Program-made: the position numbers and the translations under genes
Notes under the pieces: generated by a model
Seen by the model: the letters and a program-made list of their open reading frames with translations, nothing else
What the model was told of the DNA's origin: nothing
The model's database searches: none
Assembly: GCA_002506255.1 (NCBI GenBank)
Contig: DAXF01000014.1
Span: 1-6,456, forward strand
Direction: 5' to 3'
Origin: Methanomassiliicoccaceae archaeon UBA367
Lineage (GTDB): Archaea; Thermoplasmatota; Thermoplasmata; Methanomassiliicoccales; Methanomethylophilaceae
Length of the DNA: 6,456 nucleotides
Shown here: positions 7 to 6,456 of the stretch, piece after piece
Position numbering within the stretch: position 1 is the first letter of the stretch
Layout: each line of letters begins with the position of its first letter

Positions 7-486
7 ATGAAATCGAAATCGATGGTTTTTGTGATCGCAGCGGTCCTCGCCGTGGCCGCTGTGAGTATTGTGATCAATTATGGCCTAATGGATAACGACA
101 GCGAGGCGAAATATGAGGTGGATTTCCTCTTTGAGAGGAACACAGGTGAGAAAGAGTGGTCTCACGGGTCCGGGGACACGCCTCAGGATGCGCTGAAGAA
201 TGCATGTGACAAGATCGGATATGAGCTTGAGTATACCGGGACCGGTAATACGTTATGGATCGATACGATAGACGGCATTGGTTGGGTAGCCGCCGCTCCT
301 GAGGATACGACAAAGTCTGGCAGCAGCTGGGTGCATTATGAGTGGGATTCTGAGAGCGGTTCCTGGATTCTGACAGATTACCTTTTCGGGAATCTCCCGA
401 CCGGCGTGAAGTACTTCTGTTTCTTCTACACGGATCTGGATACGTCCTGGGCTCCTATCGGAAGTCCGACTGCGGTTCCTGCCTGA
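7..486 (+). CDS. Small secreted/signal-anchored protein with a DUF4430-like (transcobalamin C-terminal-like) domain
   Basis: This is a 159-residue protein of unproven function. Residues 2-4 (KSK) precede a hydrophobic stretch at about 6-27, so it is exported or held by an uncleaved signal anchor; there is no lipobox cysteine. The rest is one domain (about 36-145): an alpha segment DALKNACDKIGY (61-72), the strand WIDTIDGIG (84-92), SGSSWVHYEW (104-113), and LPTGVKYFCFFY (130-141). That order of helix, 'IDGI', 'SxW..Y.W' and 'G(v)xxFxFxY' resembles DUF4430, the fold related to the cobalamin-binding beta domain of transcobalamin and intrinsic factor. The family call is by eye. The same domain recurs in the next two genes, so I infer a diffusible or surface corrinoid-binding accessory. 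The ATG at 7 is chosen because it keeps the basic residues ahead of the hydrophobic core. The frame is open to the window edge, so an upstream start cannot be excluded. Stop is TGA; 51 bp separate it from the next gene. Confidence 0.82.
   Translation: MKSKSMVFVIAAVLAVAAVSIVINYGLMDNDSEAKYEVDFLFERNTGEKEWSHGSGDTPQDALKNACDKIGYELEYTGTGNTLWIDTIDGIGWVAAAPEDTTKSGSSWVHYEWDSESGSWILTDYLFGNLPTGVKYFCFFYTDLDTSWAPIGSPTAVPA
112..441 (+). other. DUF4430-like domain, copy 1
   Basis: Residues about 36-145 of the first gene. Landmarks shared with copies 2 and 3 are an IDGI/INGV/LDGI turn, a serine-rich step into a Trp-rich strand (SSWVHYEW), a second Trp (SGSW, 117-120), and a closing F/Y-rich strand (KYFCFFY). 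Cys67 lies in ACDKIGY and matches the cysteine in SCTAKGY of copy 2. Boundaries are approximate. Confidence 0.6.
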
Positions 487-499
487 TTCAGACTATTTA

Positions 500-521
500 C
501 AAACCCTTTTCAAACCCTTTT
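500..521 (+). repeat. Perfect 11-bp tandem direct repeat in the intergenic gap before btuF
   Basis: CAAACCCTTTT occurs at 500-510 and again, with no gap, at 511-521. The second unit also forms a short dyad, TCAAA-CCCT-TTTGA (510-523). It ends just ahead of the likely ribosome binding site of the btuF-like gene. It could be a regulator site, a weak T-rich pause or processing site, or chance; the sequence does not decide between these. It is far too short to be a cobalamin riboswitch. Confidence 0.6.
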
Positions 522-527
522 GAAGGA
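522..527 (+). promoter_or_regulatory. Ribosome binding site supporting the ATG start at 538
   Basis: GAAGGA lies 10 bases ahead of the ATG at 538. A longer reading from TTG at 520 would place this motif inside the gene and leaves only C/T-rich sequence upstream, so the ATG is preferred. Confidence 0.5.
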
Positions 528-537
528 ACCCGTTACC

Positions 538-1887
538 ATGTCTGCCCGTAGATTGAAAACAGCGGCCTCATTGGCGATAATCATACTGGTCGCAATATCC
601 GTGCCGGTTCTGGCCGATATCAACGAGCCCCGGGATTACAGTGAAGGGATGCTCATCGATTTCGGAAGATATGACGGAGTGTGGATCCCCACGGAGAAGG
701 GGGACAAGACCATTGCCGAGGTCTTGGATTATTCCTGCACGGCGAAAGGATATGCAGTTGTAAAGGACAGTAATGGCATCCCGGAATCCATAAATGGGGT
801 ATCTAATAATTCGGTCAGGACCTGGACCCTCTGGACAACGCCCAAGGATAGTGGCGTGTGGGAGAAGCAGAACGGATTGCCGGAGAATCTCTATATGAAG
901 GATTTTGGATTCGTGACATTCGCTTTCTCGTACGAAGGATACACGCCGTTGCCGTGCGTGGATGCAGAGGGTAGATGCATATTCAATGACGGTACGCTTC
1001 TCCGGGCGATCACCTTAGCGCCTTCCTGCACAGAGATGTATTATGCCATACATGGGATCGGCGGTTTGGTGGGGACGGATCTCTACAGCAATTATCCTGT
1101 ATCCATAAGCGGTATGAGAGAGAGCGGCAGGGTCGCCGCCGTAGGTGGATATACCAACCCAAGTTACGAGAAGGTGTTGGGACAGAGCCCGGATATAGTG
1201 ATAGGAGAAGCTAGCGTCGGAGGCCATTTGGATGTGGCCAAGAGGCTCAGAAGCACCAACGTTTTCACTTTGATGCTGCCGGGATCTGACAGCATTGATG
1301 CCATATGCAGGAATATATGGACAATAGGTCAGGCCACAGGCAATCCGGAGAATGCCAAAGCCGTGACCAACAGTATCACGGCGCAGTTGGACAGCACTTT
1401 GTCCGGGATAAAGAACACAGTCAGGAAGGATGTCCTTCTGGCCCTGGGAATGCTGCCCTCGGCCTTCACTTCAGGAGATAACACTTACATGGATGATGCA
1501 ACCAAATACGCCAGGGGAACGAACATATTCGGAGAGGAGAACCTTGGATGGTTCCCGTCCAGTGCGGAAGAGGTAAAGGATAGGAACCCGCAGGTCATAA
1601 TCATAGTATCCGAATCCGCAGTGACCACTCAGGCGGAATACGACGAAAAGATGGAATGGATAAGGAATAACAATCCTCAGTGGGCCGGTACAGACGCTTT
1701 CAAGAACGGAGAGGTATACTTCTTCAGCGGTCAGGCTGCGGATGTGCTGTCGCGTCCCGGTCCGAGAGTGTGCCAGGCCGCAGAGCTTCTCGCAAACGCG
1801 CTTCATCCCGAACGTTTCAGTGATCCGCTTCCAAAGTATGTGGGCGACGATTACAGAGACTATCTTACAGTATCTGCGGGGTGGTGA
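538..1887 (+). CDS. btuF: BtuF-type corrinoid ABC transporter binding protein with an extra N-terminal DUF4430-like domain
   Basis: This 449-residue extracellular protein should capture the ligand and dock on the permease encoded next. A signal sequence runs to about residue 26 (ARRLK, then a hydrophobic run, then VLA-D). Residues about 34-140 are a DUF4430-like domain, and about 155-425 are a periplasmic-binding fold of the BtuF/FecB type (Pfam PF01497 by recognition). BtuF landmarks are RAITLAPSCTEMYYA (156-170), VGTDLYSNYP (178-187), VGGYTNPSYEKVLGQSPDIVIG (202-223, read as two motifs: VGGYTNPSYEKVLG and QSPDIVIG) and SRPGPRVCQAAELL (405-418). Acidic residues D232 (GGHLD) and E344 (SSAEEV) sit, by eye, where E. 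coli BtuF has the two glutamates that dock on BtuC arginines. Ordinary BtuF proteins are about 250-350 residues; the excess here is the added front domain. No lipobox cysteine or C-terminal membrane helix is seen, so attachment would be by an uncleaved signal, by protein partners, or absent. A TTG at 520 would add six residues; the ATG is preferred. A siderophore or heme ligand is possible; the downstream cobD favours corrinoid. Confidence 0.88.
   Translation: MSARRLKTAASLAIIILVAISVPVLADINEPRDYSEGMLIDFGRYDGVWIPTEKGDKTIAEVLDYSCTAKGYAVVKDSNGIPESINGVSNNSVRTWTLWTTPKDSGVWEKQNGLPENLYMKDFGFVTFAFSYEGYTPLPCVDAEGRCIFNDGTLLRAITLAPSCTEMYYAIHGIGGLVGTDLYSNYPVSISGMRESGRVAAVGGYTNPSYEKVLGQSPDIVIGEASVGGHLDVAKRLRSTNVFTLMLPGSDSIDAICRNIWTIGQATGNPENAKAVTNSITAQLDSTLSGIKNTVRKDVLLALGMLPSAFTSGDNTYMDDATKYARGTNIFGEENLGWFPSSAEEVKDRNPQVIIIVSESAVTTQAEYDEKMEWIRNNNPQWAGTDAFKNGEVYFFSGQAADVLSRPGPRVCQAAELLANALHPERFSDPLPKYVGDDYRDYLTVSAGW
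637..957 (+). other. DUF4430-like domain, copy 2 (fused in front of BtuF)
   Basis: Residues about 34-140 of the BtuF-like protein. Its features align in order with copy 1: EVLDYSCTAKGYAVV (61-75) with DALKNACDKIGYELE, SINGVSNNSVRTWTLW (84-99) with the IDGI...SSWVHYEW region, SGVW (105-108) with SGSW, and FVTFAFSYEGYTPLP (125-139) with the closing aromatic strand. Boundaries are approximate. Confidence 0.6.
1878..1887 (+). promoter_or_regulatory. Ribosome binding site deciding a TTG start at 1889
   Basis: The bases GGGGTGGTGA resemble the archaeal GGAGGTGA consensus and overlap the TGA stop of the BtuF-like gene. The next gene's TTG follows after one base. Termination and re-initiation are therefore probably coupled, giving linked amounts of the binding protein and permease. 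Confidence 0.6.
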
Positions 1888-1888
1888 A

Positions 1889-4702
1889 TTGAAGAGAGCA
1901 TTGCCTGTCTTCTCGGTTGTCCTTTTGATGCTGGCAGGTGTTCTTTCCATAGCTCCGTTCTTATCGGATGCTGATACTGAGGAAGGAACGATCTTCTTGG
2001 ATATGGGCGACGGCAACGTGATGGAAACGTATGTTTCGGTGAACGGCACAATGGGTGATGCCGTATCTGTTGCCATTTCAGAAAACGATCTTACAGGCAC
2101 TTTGGCGGGAACGGCAACAGACAATCTTGACGGCATATCCAACGGGTCCGGCTCATCCAATTGTGAATGGCGTTTCTACAAATGGGAGGGAGAATGGGTG
2201 GAGACGGCCTATGACGGCGCCGCAGCCTTCGTCGGCGGGACATTCGCATGGGGCTTCTATCCCGCCGGCTTGACGCCTGTGGCCACACCCTCGGTTTCAG
2301 ACCCATGGATCATGTACAGAGGTGACGCTTCAGGCTCAGGCGTCCAATCCTCTGCAGGTCCCGAGTCCTGCGGAGTGAAGTGGACGATCCAGTACGACGG
2401 CGAATTCATAAACGGCGGCATACTGGCTGCAGGGGAACGCATTTATTTCATAACCGGGGGGACGGAGAAACCTAATCCCCTCGATCCGACGGAGGAACGT
2501 GATCGTGCTTACCCCGCACTGCACTGTGCGGATCTGGATGGGAACATAATATGGTTTGCGCAATATCCCGAAATAGGTCTAAGTTGGGAGACTGCAACAC
2601 CTCTTGTGCTGAGTGACAGAGTCATAGTTCCTGCATCCTGCGGTAAGATATTCATGGTGGATCTGGACGGGAAACCGATAGGGACGCCTGTGGATATACC
2701 TCGTTTCGATACAGGTGTGCCTCGAAAATTCATGTCAGGTCCTGGATCTTTGGTGTATGACAGCGGTTTCGTGTACTTCGGAGCATCCGACGGCCGTTTC
2801 TATAAGATGGATACAGACGGCAACATCATTTCCAGTGTTCAGACCGGGGAGGCAGTGTACCATGCCGCACCCTATATACGCACGGAGGCGGACGGAACCA
2901 AGACGGCCTTCATAGGCGGATGGGGCGGGTCGATATTCGCCATAGACTGCGCTACGATGACAGTGGAATGGGAATACGATCTGTACCTGGATGAAGAAGA
3001 TCCGGATAAATACGGTCTTTTCGGCTCTGTCACGATGGGGACCGGAGCATACTCCAATATGATCGCCGTAACGTATTCAGACGGTGCCATGTCCCCCCTT
3101 GAATCGGGGATCGCAGTCTTTAACCTGGACACTCTAGATCCCAGCAATCCGGAGCCGATGTGGAAGGATGAAAGCTTCAGTGCCGCAGGATCCCCAGGAG
3201 TGGCCTACAAGAACGGTTTCATAATATCGACTTCAAACGGAGTGTCATTCTACGAATGGAACAACAGCGAGCCTCTTTGGATGAAGGATTACGGGCTGGT
3301 CAAAGGTCCGCTGACAATGGCCAACGACAGAGTATATCTTGTTCAATATCAATCCAACGGATCCATTATAGCCTTAAGTCCCGAGAGCGGCTCTAAGCTG
3401 GGGGAGTATGCAATTGAGCCTGCCACAAGCAAAGGGTTCGCAATGGTCGGGGCCCTGATCCACGGCGGCAACATATACGTGGGTAACGACGATGGAATAC
3501 TCTATTGCTTTGACTCCTCTGTCCTTCCGCTCATAAGGGGAGAGCCCAAACCCGGAGGAGCGGATACCGCAACCATAGCGATATGGTCTGCGACATTCGG
3601 AATGCTGGCTCTTTTTGTCTTTTATTATATCAGATTCGTGAAACCTTCCGGGGAGGGCATGGTTGCATCCAGGAAGAGGAAACTGTTCCTGATGCTTGCC
3701 GCCGGCTCATTGGGCTCGTTCATAATGTTCATGCTGGCACTCTCCTACGGTCCCGGAGGGAATATGTCCGTAGGCGAGGCGCTCCTGAATCTGGCATCCG
3801 CACTTGGTAAAGGCGGCGAAGGCCTTACGGCATACGAGTCGTACATCTATGAATCCAGGCTTCCGAGGGCTATGGCGACTTTTGCCGTCGGCATAGGCCT
3901 GTCCGTAGCCGGTGCCGTTTATCAGGCAATAATCAGGAATCCGCTGGTGGATCCCTACATCACGGGAGTCTCTTCCGGAGCAGGATTGATGGCCATAGTC
4001 GCGATAGTCTTCGGGACCTCCCTGGGTGTGAGCTATGTAACGAGCATATATCTGACGCCCATAGTCGCAATGGTAGGCGGTCTTTTGGCTTTCGTACTCA
4101 CGATGCTGATAGCGGAGAAATCCGGCGGATCGTCTCTGAACTATGTACTCGGAGGCGTAGTGATCGGTCTGGCATTCTCGGCATTCCAATCTATGATACT
4201 GTCCATGGCGGGAAACCAGCTTCAAAATGCTATGTTCTGGCTCTTCGGTAGCTTCGCCAACGTGACATGGAATAACGTCTGGTTCATATTCATACCTGCG
4301 TTGGCTATGTCATTTATACCTCTATTCTGGGCCAAGGAGCTCAATCTTGTGCTGCTGGGCGAGGAGCAGGCGAGGCAGATGGGGCTGAACGTCAGGAGCT
4401 TCAACAGGTGGATGATGGTGCTGGCGTCTGTGATAACGTCAGTATGTGTTGCCTTCGTCGGCATAATCGGATTCGTGGGCCTGGTGGTCCCCCACCTCTG
4501 CCGTATGATATTGGGCGGAGACCACAGACTGGTGCTTCCCGCTTCGATAATAATGGGTGGCGCACTCATGATGGCTGCAGATCTGGTAGCCAGAATGATC
4601 TTCGTGCCATTCGAGCTCCCGGTGGGTGCGATAACGACGCTTATAGGAACGCCACTGTTCGCGTACCTTCTGATAAAGAGGGGGAGGATGTACAATGGTT
4701 GA
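1889..4702 (+). CDS. btuC: Fusion of DUF4430-like domain, extracellular PQQ-type beta-propeller and BtuC/FecCD permease
   Basis: A 937-residue membrane protein, nearly three times the usual BtuC length of about 330. Order: signal sequence (1-28, MKRALP then hydrophobic); DUF4430-like domain (34-133); beta-propeller (about 139-548); an added membrane helix (about 562-583); basic linker (RFVKPSGEGMVASRKRK, 582-598); BtuC permease (about 596-937). Permease motifs are RLPRAMA (657-663), SVAGAVYQAIIRNPLVDP (672-689), TGVSSGAG (692-699), the ATPase-contacting LLGEEQARQMGLNV (822-835), GFVGLVVPHLCR (861-872) and FELPVGAITTLIGTPLF (908-924). R657 and R660 match the BtuC arginines that meet BtuF. Signal, outside propeller, helix into the cell, basic linker inside, then BtuC's first helix gives a consistent topology. 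The start is TTG at 1889: it gives a proper signal sequence, whereas the longer in-frame reading from 1742 lies inside btuF and encodes no signal. ATG at 1928 would cut the signal. No frameshift is seen across the junction, which is open in one frame throughout. Role: channel of the corrinoid importer; the propeller's role is inferred as capture or docking. Confidence 0.88.
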   Translation: MKRALPVFSVVLLMLAGVLSIAPFLSDADTEEGTIFLDMGDGNVMETYVSVNGTMGDAVSVAISENDLTGTLAGTATDNLDGISNGSGSSNCEWRFYKWEGEWVETAYDGAAAFVGGTFAWGFYPAGLTPVATPSVSDPWIMYRGDASGSGVQSSAGPESCGVKWTIQYDGEFINGGILAAGERIYFITGGTEKPNPLDPTEERDRAYPALHCADLDGNIIWFAQYPEIGLSWETATPLVLSDRVIVPASCGKIFMVDLDGKPIGTPVDIPRFDTGVPRKFMSGPGSLVYDSGFVYFGASDGRFYKMDTDGNIISSVQTGEAVYHAAPYIRTEADGTKTAFIGGWGGSIFAIDCATMTVEWEYDLYLDEEDPDKYGLFGSVTMGTGAYSNMIAVTYSDGAMSPLESGIAVFNLDTLDPSNPEPMWKDESFSAAGSPGVAYKNGFIISTSNGVSFYEWNNSEPLWMKDYGLVKGPLTMANDRVYLVQYQSNGSIIALSPESGSKLGEYAIEPATSKGFAMVGALIHGGNIYVGNDDGILYCFDSSVLPLIRGEPKPGGADTATIAIWSATFGMLALFVFYYIRFVKPSGEGMVASRKRKLFLMLAAGSLGSFIMFMLALSYGPGGNMSVGEALLNLASALGKGGEGLTAYESYIYESRLPRAMATFAVGIGLSVAGAVYQAIIRNPLVDPYITGVSSGAGLMAIVAIVFGTSLGVSYVTSIYLTPIVAMVGGLLAFVLTMLIAEKSGGSSLNYVLGGVVIGLAFSAFQSMILSMAGNQLQNAMFWLFGSFANVTWNNVWFIFIPALAMSFIPLFWAKELNLVLLGEEQARQMGLNVRSFNRWMMVLASVITSVCVAFVGIIGFVGLVVPHLCRMILGGDHRLVLPASIIMGGALMMAADLVARMIFVPFELPVGAITTLIGTPLFAYLLIKRGRMYNG
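1988..2287 (+). other. DUF4430-like domain, copy 3 (front of the permease fusion)
   Basis: Residues about 34-133 of the fusion. It holds NLDGISNGSGSSNCEWRFYKW (79-99, read as LDGISNGSGSS then NCEWRFYKW), GEWVE (101-105) and FVGGTFAWGFYPAGLTPVATP (114-134, read as FVGGTFAWGFY then PAGLTPVATP). The last part lines up with FVTFAFSYEGYTPLP of copy 2. The helix cysteine shared by copies 1 and 2 is absent here; the domain has a single cysteine at 92. Confidence 0.6.
2303..3532 (+). other. Beta-propeller domain of about eight PQQ/BamB-type blades
   Basis: Residues about 139-548 of the fusion. It opens with the typical PQQ-propeller entry, PWIMYRGDASGSG (139-151) and GVKW (162-165). Recurrent blade strands then follow: ERIYFITGG (183-191) with LHCADLDGNIIW (211-222), DRVIVPASCGKIFMVDLDG (243-261), GFVYFGASDGRFYKMDTDG (293-311), TAFIGGWGGSIFAIDCA (339-355), MIAVTYSDG (391-399) with GIAVFNLDT (407-415), GFIISTSNGVSFYEW (443-457), DRVYLVQYQSNGSIIALSP (480-498) and GNIYVGNDDGILYCFD (527-542). 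Eight units fit the eight-bladed quinoprotein/BamB class. Whether it binds PQQ cannot be told; most archaeal members of this fold are likely protein- or ligand-binding scaffolds. Confidence 0.85.
4681..4687 (+). promoter_or_regulatory. Ribosome binding site for btuD inside the permease gene
   Basis: GGGGAGG lies seven bases ahead of the ATG at 4695, within the last codons of the permease gene. It fixes the start and supports translational coupling of permease and ATPase. Confidence 0.7.
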
Positions 4703-5501
4703 GACGCCGCTTCTGGAGCTGAGGAATGTCAGCAAAACATACGAGAACGGGTTCCGGGCGGTGAAGGAGGTTTCCTACAGCATAGGAAAGGGGATGCTGG
4801 TAGGCCTAATCGGCCCTAACGGATGCGGGAAGTCCACCATGATGAAGTGCATCAACAGGATTCATCCTACCACATCCGGAGACATACTGGTGAACGGTGA
4901 ATCCGTGTTGAATAGAGCTCCGGGGGAGCTTGCCAAGGTAATATCAAATGTCCCGGCGGAGCTGAATACCAGCTTCGGTCTTACTGTCGCGGAGACTGTG
5001 ATGATGGGCAGATATCCGCACAGCACAAATCTATGGTGGGAGAGTGACAGGGACGAGTCCTTTACAGAAGAGGCCATGCACAAGTTCGGAGTGTTCGGCC
5101 TGAAGGACAGGTATCTCCACACCCTGTCCAGCGGAGAGAGGCAAAGAGTGCTCATCGCCAAGGCATATGTGCAGGAGCCCAAGCTCATGCTCGTGGATGA
5201 GCCCACGTCGCATCTTGATATGAGATACAAGCTGGAGGTGATGGAGTACCTGAATGCGATGGTCAAGAAGGACATATCCATATTGATCGCGGAGCACGAT
5301 ATCTCCCTCATGGCCAGATATTGCGATATCTGCATAATTATGAAGGAGGGATCCCTGTTCAAGATCGGCCCTCCGAAGGAGATCATAAACTCGGATCTTA
5401 TAGAGGAGGTCTACGGTGTCTCAGCGTCTGTGGGCTTTGACAATGACGGCGAGCTCTTCGTTCTGCCGAAGAGATACAAATCAGGTCGCGGCAGTATATG
5501 A
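4695..5501 (+). CDS. btuD: BtuD/FecE-type ABC transporter ATPase
   Basis: This 268-residue cytoplasmic ATPase powers the importer formed with the BtuF-like and BtuC-like proteins. Motifs in order: Walker A GPNGCGKST (40-48, Lys46), Q-loop region ISNVPAELNTSFGLTV (83-98), GRYPH (105-109, typical of the FecE/BtuD class), signature LSSGERQRV (144-152), Walker B KLMLVDEP (163-170, Asp168 and catalytic Glu169), D-loop SHLD (172-175) and switch His201 in AEHDIS. Length is normal for the family. One oddity: the family's Q-loop reads VPQ, but here it is VPAE, so Ala88 stands where the glutamine is expected. The other catalytic residues are intact, so the enzyme should still be active. The gene overlaps the permease gene by 8 bp. 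The class also includes iron-siderophore and heme ATPases; ligand assignment rests on context. Confidence 0.93.
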   Translation: MVETPLLELRNVSKTYENGFRAVKEVSYSIGKGMLVGLIGPNGCGKSTMMKCINRIHPTTSGDILVNGESVLNRAPGELAKVISNVPAELNTSFGLTVAETVMMGRYPHSTNLWWESDRDESFTEEAMHKFGVFGLKDRYLHTLSSGERQRVLIAKAYVQEPKLMLVDEPTSHLDMRYKLEVMEYLNAMVKKDISILIAEHDISLMARYCDICIIMKEGSLFKIGPPKEIINSDLIEEVYGVSASVGFDNDGELFVLPKRYKSGRGSI

Positions 5502-5539: not shown

Positions 5540-6456
5540 ATGAGAATAGAGGACTCTGTCAGAAAACATCTTCTTGACCTTAACGGAGCGGTCCACGGTG
5601 GCCAGGGGTGGCGTTACGGGGGAGTGGAGGACTTCAGCCACAACCTCAATCCTTTTGGCCCGCCGGACATCCTCAATAATGTGATCATATCTGCCACGTC
5701 CAATATAGGTCACTATCCGGACGACTCTTGTGCAGATCTTAAGAGAGTGATAGCCAAGAGGCATTCCCTGAGCGAGTGCAACGTAATGGTGGGGGCAGGC
5801 TCGTCCGACATAATACGGGCGTTCCCCAATACATTCGTGGAGCCGGGGGACAAGGTGGTCATGGCCAGGCCCACCTTCGCGGAGTACGGCAGGCAGTGCA
5901 GGGTGGCCGGTGCGAACATAACGGATCTGCTACTGACAGAGTCGGACGATTTCAGGATCAACCGTGACAGGCTCTCGAAGCTAATATCCGGGGCGAAGGC
6001 GCTCTTCCTGTGTAATCCAAATAATCCGACCGGAAGGGTGGAGTCCAGGGAGCGTATACTGAGCATCGCCGATGAGTGCCTGAAGAAGGGCGTGATGCTC
6101 TTCCTGGACGAGACCCTGCTGGATCTCGTGCTGGGACATGAGGACATATCCTGTGCCGGGTACATCAACGAATATCCTAACATGGTGGTTGCGTGTTCCC
6201 TTACGAAATCCTTTGCGATCCCGGGGGTGCGCATAGGATACGGTCTGGCTTCCGAGGGCACAGTCAAACAGATGGAGAAGGTGAGGATGGCCTGGAATGT
6301 CGGCGGCATAGAGCAGCACGTGGCGAAGATACTCATAAGAGATCATATGAGCCATGTGGACAAGGCGGCCAAGATGATGGACACGGAGAAGAGATGGATG
6401 TTCAACGCACTGAAGGACATAGGGTTCCCTGTTTCCGATCCGGCGGACTCCTTCTT
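5540..6456 (+). CDS. cobD: Threonine-phosphate decarboxylase, CobD family (3' end outside window)
   Basis: CobD is a PLP enzyme that decarboxylates L-threonine 3-phosphate to (R)-1-aminopropan-2-yl phosphate, the linker joining the corrin ring to the nucleotide loop of cobamides. 305 codons plus two bases are visible, with no stop; the family is about 360 residues, so some 50-60 are missing at the window edge. CobD landmarks are VHGGQGWRYG (18-27), DFSHNLNPFGPP (31-42), PTFAEYGR (111-118), ALFLCNPNNPTG (154-165), FLDE (188-191, Asp190 for the PLP ring) and SLTKSFAIPGVRIGYG (220-235), with PLP Lys223 and Arg231. FAEYGR, FLC.PNNPTG and SLTK..AIPG favour CobD over its relative HisC. GAGSSD (85-90) is more HisC-like than the GNGETE of Salmonella CobD, so a histidinol-phosphate aminotransferase remains the alternative. 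Placed 38 bp after btuD, it points to cobinamide salvage coupled to uptake. Confidence 0.86.
   Translation, partial: MRIEDSVRKHLLDLNGAVHGGQGWRYGGVEDFSHNLNPFGPPDILNNVIISATSNIGHYPDDSCADLKRVIAKRHSLSECNVMVGAGSSDIIRAFPNTFVEPGDKVVMARPTFAEYGRQCRVAGANITDLLLTESDDFRINRDRLSKLISGAKALFLCNPNNPTGRVESRERILSIADECLKKGVMLFLDETLLDLVLGHEDISCAGYINEYPNMVVACSLTKSFAIPGVRIGYGLASEGTVKQMEKVRMAWNVGGIEQHVAKILIRDHMSHVDKAAKMMDTEKRWMFNALKDIGFPVSDPADSF

Follow-up and report, generated by a model that had tools for sequence, protein, structure and literature searches.

The window analyzed here, a 6,456-nucleotide stretch of DNA from Methanomassiliicoccaceae archaeon UBA367 (contig DAXF01000014.1), carries an operon for a putative corrinoid importer of the ATP-binding cassette (ABC) type, in which the permease is fused to a small N-terminal domain, a predicted β-propeller, and an extra membrane helix (Table 1). 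The initial annotation had proposed that one frame joins a propeller to a complete BtuC/FecCD permease, and the open frame, Pfam matches, and structure comparison bear this out. The fused gene starts with TTG, one base past the btuF stop, and its frame is open throughout, ending with a stop codon at 4700-4702. Pfam matched FecCD to residues 612-930 (E 4e-83) and also detected PQQ_2 (E 2e-11). In an AlphaFold2 model (predicted local distance difference test, pLDDT, 83; predicted template modelling score, pTM, 0.61), residues 153-544 resembled propellers and residues 588-933 resembled BtuC-type permeases. The helix at residues 560-583 and a similar small domain on BtuF are additions to what had been annotated initially.

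Table 1. Features of the window, with the evidence for each assignment
Feature	Position	Strand	Evidence
Small secreted protein, perhaps a stand-alone transcobalamin-like (DUF4430) domain; weak	7..486	+	Distant alignment
btuF-like substrate-binding protein	520..1887	+	Peripla_BP_2 E 1.2e-23, residues 165-402
N-terminal transcobalamin-like domain of BtuF, residues 37-150	628..969	+	Profile-profile comparison
Fused permease, 937 amino acids	1889..4702	+	Open frame, Pfam domains, homologues
Transcobalamin beta-domain-like (SLBB/DUF4430-like) domain of fused protein, residues 31-137	1979..2299	+	Profile and predicted fold
Eight-bladed PQQ/BamB-type propeller, residues 153-544	2345..3520	+	Pfam, AlphaFold2 model, structure comparison
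Extra membrane helix linking propeller to permease, residues 560-583	3566..3637	+	AlphaFold2 model, hydrophobic sequence
Complete BtuC/FecCD permease, residues 591-934	3659..4690	+	Pfam, structure comparison
btuD-like ATPase, start overlaps permease stop	4695..5501	+	ABC_tran E 3.9e-30
cobD-like threonine-phosphate decarboxylase, runs off window	5540..6454	+	TIGR01140 E 1.4e-58, 199/291 bits, below cut-off

A protein search, in which only the 7,989 candidates sharing most words were scored, returned 654 homologues with E of 0.001 or less, and the propeller and FecCD models both matched 116 of the 120 homologues listed. Those with names carried Methanomassiliicoccales or broader archaeal labels, and one, from Methanoplasma termitum, is already named BtuC in a database. 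In UBA381 (Methanomassiliicoccaceae archaeon, a metagenome-assembled genome), the closest genome record, the fused protein is 95-96% identical and occupies a single unbroken frame. Because of these homologues and the UBA381 frame, we consider the fusion of propeller and BtuC confirmed as real, neither chance nor an assembly slip. Likewise, at least 62 of the 147 genomes of the order had a single match spanning both propeller and permease and many database entries join them, which makes an assembly or annotation artefact extremely improbable.

Permease, propeller, and joining helix

The permease domain scored 279 bits with the FecCD Pfam model (cut-off 26.5). Because it fell short of the cut-offs of the NCBIfam BtuC equivalog models (217/461 and 210/334 bits; the FecD model gave 207), we class it by sequence as a BtuC-like member of the FecCD family rather than as a named BtuC equivalog. 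It shares 30% identity over 322 residues with E. coli BtuC (2qi9), whose 326-residue chain lacks the extracellular module and the extra first helix that the fused protein has. As in E. coli BtuCDF, the window operon supplies BtuF-like and BtuD-like partners. Arg657 and Arg660 of the fused protein aligned with Arg56 and Arg59 of E. coli BtuC, which we take to be BtuF contacts, and were invariant in 97 aligned homologues. This conservation suggests that BtuF still docks on BtuC in the usual way, and that the propeller probably adds to the usual BtuF-BtuC interface.

Both fold and sequence place the propeller in the PQQ/BamB type. Eight four-stranded blades were counted from the strand list of the model, with strand 162-168 predicted to close the last blade; roughly eight had been annotated initially. 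Conserved non-glycine residues favored one set of loops (one-sided p 0.04; loops assigned by us) and included Tyr324, Tyr487, Met401, Met519, Glu234, Asp398, and Asp534. Cysteine occupies propeller position 213 (window 2525-2527) in 93% of homologues and position 306 (window 2804-2806) in 85%, both by weight; the window propeller keeps Cys at 213 and has Lys at 306. Two homologues of 1193 and 1444 amino acids (P0084 and P0101) appear by eye to contain extra SLBB-like repeats between propeller and membrane helix, where Pfam is silent.

The joining helix is preceded in the model by a low-confidence segment (residues 544-562). Its sequence is hydrophobic and is followed by a basic stretch, VKPSGEGMVASRKRK (residues 584-598), whose composition fits a location on the cytoplasmic side. 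Propeller proteins encoded as separate genes also end in a similar hydrophobic stretch, as judged by eye.

Small transcobalamin-like domains

The label DUF4430-like, given initially to the N-terminal domain of the fused protein, holds at the level of profile and fold; its Pfam side is taken up below. An N-domain profile matched bona fide DUF4430 proteins with E 1.4e-6 and a score of 42.4 (maximum of 100 shuffles, 18.2), and a narrower profile reached only probability 54 and E 1.3e-4. Of 33 N-domain slices obtained from homologues, 22 were used. The predicted model has a beta-grasp fold with a hairpin after the helix, which matches the definition of the SLBB clade (Burroughs et al., 2007; PMC1796856). 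The domain also resembles the mammalian B12 carriers transcobalamin, intrinsic factor, and haptocorrin, at 8-14% identity. The sole PDB sequence match of the N-domain profile, a calcium uniporter (E 0.056), was taken as chance.

BtuF bears the same kind of domain. A profile of 31 BtuF N-domains, the window's included, matched the fused-protein N-domain profile with probability 98.6, E 9.6e-16, and a score of 86 (100-shuffle maximum 18.0), and the DUF4430 profile with probability 92.7, E 4.3e-7, and a score of 45 (100-shuffle maximum 18.7). The likeness is seen in profiles only; compared as single sequences, the window's two N-domains gave a non-significant E of 0.18. In one relative (G056), the BtuF N-domain alone passes PF14478 (24.6 bits). 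PDB relatives of the window BtuF include E. coli BtuF (E of about 1e-12). At another locus (L077:8061-11999), a BtuF-like frame of 1312 amino acids has a very long N-terminal extension.

Architectures in the order

The full protein found a match of some kind in 142 of the 147 genomes of the order, and the extracellular part alone found one in 95. Fused genomes were counted by us among the matches listed, as those with a match beginning at or before query residue 341 and reaching 934 or beyond; two further fused genes (G039 and G115) lie beyond the 62, and some fused matches start at contig ends (G053, G114, and G028). One fused gene (G043:C20:1474-4347) has an in-frame TAG, which could be pyrrolysine, a sequencing error, or a sign of a broken gene; the order includes species that use pyrrolysine (PMC4153887). 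In a class-wide sample of 400 genomes, 66 had a match (E up to 1e-6); G158 was the sole one of these new beyond the order set, and its gene is probably not fused, because the open frame is 570 amino acids. A plasmid search returned ordinary permeases, with no record covering 80% of the query.

Beside the fused-alone type, as in the window, the order holds several other arrangements. Five BtuC clades have been reported in the order, and the diversity of BtuC has been highlighted as one of its traits (PMC10804542). The plain type, in three loci picked because the permease matched alone (L090-L092), is btuF-btuC-btuD-cobD with a BtuF that lacks the extra domain. In the split type (12 tree rows), a propeller gene whose product has a hydrophobic helix of its own at the end stands between btuF and btuC, with btuD after them, except that one row (L086) has no btuF within the stretch fetched. 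At four of the five split junctions read, the permease frame starts anywhere from 139 bases ahead of the propeller stop to 9 bases past it; at L067, 1.7 kb separate the two. Pyrrolysine read-through joining split propeller and permease was rejected, as the propeller stops were all TGA in the five loci examined. The tandem type, found in 10 genomes (loci L070-L079: G082, G083, G032, G084, G043, G080, G087, G041, G115, and G039), has a fused BtuC followed by a second, bare BtuC; a further locus (L081) has two bare copies. Thus the propeller, initially described as permanently attached, is fused in many genomes but is not obligatory in the order, which also has separate propeller genes, bare second BtuC copies, and plain operons.

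In the permease tree, the bare second copies formed one clade (100/99) within the fused ones, so that duplication of a fused gene followed by loss of the propeller is their most likely origin; in two of these copies, L072 and L079, a hydrophobic helix (judged by eye) is still present at the start. The tandem arrangement suggests a heterodimeric permease, and mixed dimers would carry a single propeller. The tree required four fused/not-fused changes among its four labelled groups. All 12 split rows fell into a single clade beside a fused row, which fits one fission and repeated fusion about equally. Permease frames with a best match below about 290 residues (including both L087 pieces and L080_1523) and L002, a duplicate of L001, were left out, four labels (L075_3130, L067_9246, L069_840, and L080_6188) were set by hand, and the tool warned of long branches for the outgroup, L090, and both L081 rows. 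In G049:C9:27431-28570 and G056:C43:5438-6562, the frames are about 380 amino acids long and the permease match starts with the joining helix (query 559-561), as if the propeller had gone and the helix been retained.

In another 12 genomes (L053-L064), a PF14478 protein is encoded close to a related propeller gene, and all 12 also have an ABC ATPase nearby. L053, the one locus scanned with family models, also has a CbiQ-like T component and an S component of the energy-coupling factor (ECF) kind. A search with its propeller found 91 proteins (E of 1e-20 or less); among the first 31, the four that have names are from Methanomassiliicoccales, and matches farther down the list grade into ordinary PQQ propellers.

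Possible roles of the propeller and small domain

In the usual picture of BtuCD-type ABC importers, a soluble or anchored binding protein comes to a bare permease. The window permease instead bears a large candidate receptor, and permease and BtuF both carry a fold that makes up half of a B12 carrier in animals. The substrate looks like a corrinoid (vitamin B12-type), judged from gene context. The cobD-like gene downstream is found likewise in the plain operons, and the whole gene in L001 also stays under the TIGR01140 cut-off (228/291 bits). In UBA381, cobS, CobT-type, and cobQ genes above cut-offs and a CobY-like gene below its cut-off lie downstream. The window btuD matched a corrinoid ABC transporter ATPase model with E 1.8e-59, below that model's cut-off, and an Rfam scan of the window found no cobalamin riboswitch or other RNA at E up to 1.

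Related systems offer precedents. SLBB domains of the transcobalamin-like clade occur in bacteria and some euryarchaea, where B12 scavenging was proposed; they combine with a propeller in Clostridium and lie in operons with the cobalt/vitamin transporter genes CbiO/CbiQ, and in transcobalamin the SLBB domain and a toroid sandwich B12 (PMC1796856). The fused protein is like these SLBB proteins in its predicted fold with hairpin insert, secretion, and propeller combination. The SLBB proteins described there are separate from the transporter, whereas in the window the module forms one chain with BtuC, and BtuF has a similar domain; the accessible part of that paper has no mention of a fusion of the SLBB domain to a permease or BtuF. 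Mammalian transcobalamin, intrinsic factor, and haptocorrin have a toroid, whereas the fused protein has a propeller instead, is membrane-bound, and is a candidate B12 binder. The cavity of the Bacteroides BtuG propeller binds B12, and BtuG (like BtuG1, with a BtuH-like extension) is a surface propeller of a B12 uptake locus in complex with its transporter (PMC6143338; PMC10404256). BtuG, however, has seven blades (PMC6143338) rather than eight and is a separate lipoprotein on an outer-membrane TonB-dependent transporter, so the comparison concerns how it works only; its absence from the structure matches listed for the fused protein says nothing either way. The mycobacterial propeller Rv3035 binds FecB, a substrate-binding-protein homologue (PMC12802301; PDB title 9p3f), but serves envelope assembly with AftB and, unlike the window protein, is not fused to a permease. 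The word 'propeller' is absent from the main text of PMC10804542, and our literature search of open-licence PMC full text found no paper on a propeller-BtuC fusion, which is no proof of absence.

The built-in surface receptor or docking module proposed in the initial annotation still explains the fusion best as a class. The transcobalamin-like domain, the corrinoid gene neighborhood, and the BtuG and Rv3035-FecB precedents add weight to it, and the propeller may bind either B12 or a substrate-binding protein. No support emerged for the ligand-processing role also suggested initially, at which no test was aimed. On balance, we think that the fused protein is probably the permease subunit of a BtuCDF-kind corrinoid ABC importer with a fused extracellular capture module. 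The propeller and transcobalamin-like domain would be extracellular and anchored by the extra helix, which would carry the chain inward across the membrane and let BtuC begin in its normal orientation. Propeller and SLBB domain could bind the corrinoid, alone or with BtuF, perhaps between them as the transcobalamin toroid and beta domain do; the corrinoid would then pass to BtuF, which delivers it to BtuC as usual, and the fusion would keep the channel close to its capture module at the membrane. In these methane-making archaea, the attached outside part may thus gather B12 at the cell surface. A more speculative extension, which we offer tentatively, sees the fused protein as transcobalamin's archaeal counterpart, made part of the importer itself: the propeller cavity would replace the toroid, the SLBB domain would close over the corrinoid, and matching SLBB domains on permease, BtuF, and perhaps the small secreted protein would relay it inward, with fused plus bare BtuC in the tandem lineage forming an asymmetric importer with one receptor. 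The architecture makes testable a possible role of the domain in prokaryotic B12 capture and how archaea lacking an outer membrane compete for corrinoids.

Several findings weigh against a corrinoid capture module. The Pfam DUF4430 model (PF14478) matched neither the window's fused protein nor any of 22 homologous N-domains, the side on which the initial label fails. The loop bias is weak, because mean conservation is higher in the C-D than in the B-C loops, and the relative placement of the domains in the model is uncertain, as its pTM indicates. In one genome, G029, the operon lacks a propeller. CbiC was found in 53 of the 62 counted fused genomes versus 37 of the 85 others (90/147 overall), so synthesis of the corrin ring may be within the capacity of many carriers, and B12 has been doubted as the ligand in archaea that synthesize it (PMC1796856). 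Auxotrophy as the driver of the fusion is unsupported by the same counts. G001, the genome nearest to the window (completeness not given), had neither a CbiC nor a CbiD match.

The prevalence of CbiC would also suit an importer of another metal chelate or a non-corrinoid vitamin whose surface module serves that ligand, as would the NCBIfam BtuC scores far under cut-off, the similar FecD score, and L053, where a related SLBB-propeller gene lies beside an ECF transporter with an S component that scores best with riboflavin-type models. Such a ligand is made unlikely by the operon's cobD-like gene, the adjoining cobamide cluster in the closest genome, and the resemblance of the small domain to B12 carriers. 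Somewhat less doubtful is a propeller that serves as a holding platform, binding BtuF rather than the vitamin and keeping it near the channel in a periplasm-less cell; we still lean away from it, as it leaves the transcobalamin-like domain unexplained, the Rv3035-FecB pair acts in envelope assembly rather than transport, and the alignment of Arg657/Arg660 with the E. coli contacts makes docking on BtuC itself look intact. A tether to surface glycan or S-layer, a role suggested for the extra domains of SLBB proteins, propeller included (PMC1796856), seems very improbable here, with the conserved aromatic and methionine residues on one loop set suggesting, weakly, a specific partner.

The small secreted protein at the start of the window has no Pfam match. 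It aligned at 24% identity with a protein from G068 (L051) that itself narrowly passes PF14478 (24.5 versus 23.8 bits), and is perhaps, on this weak likeness, a stand-alone transcobalamin-like domain.
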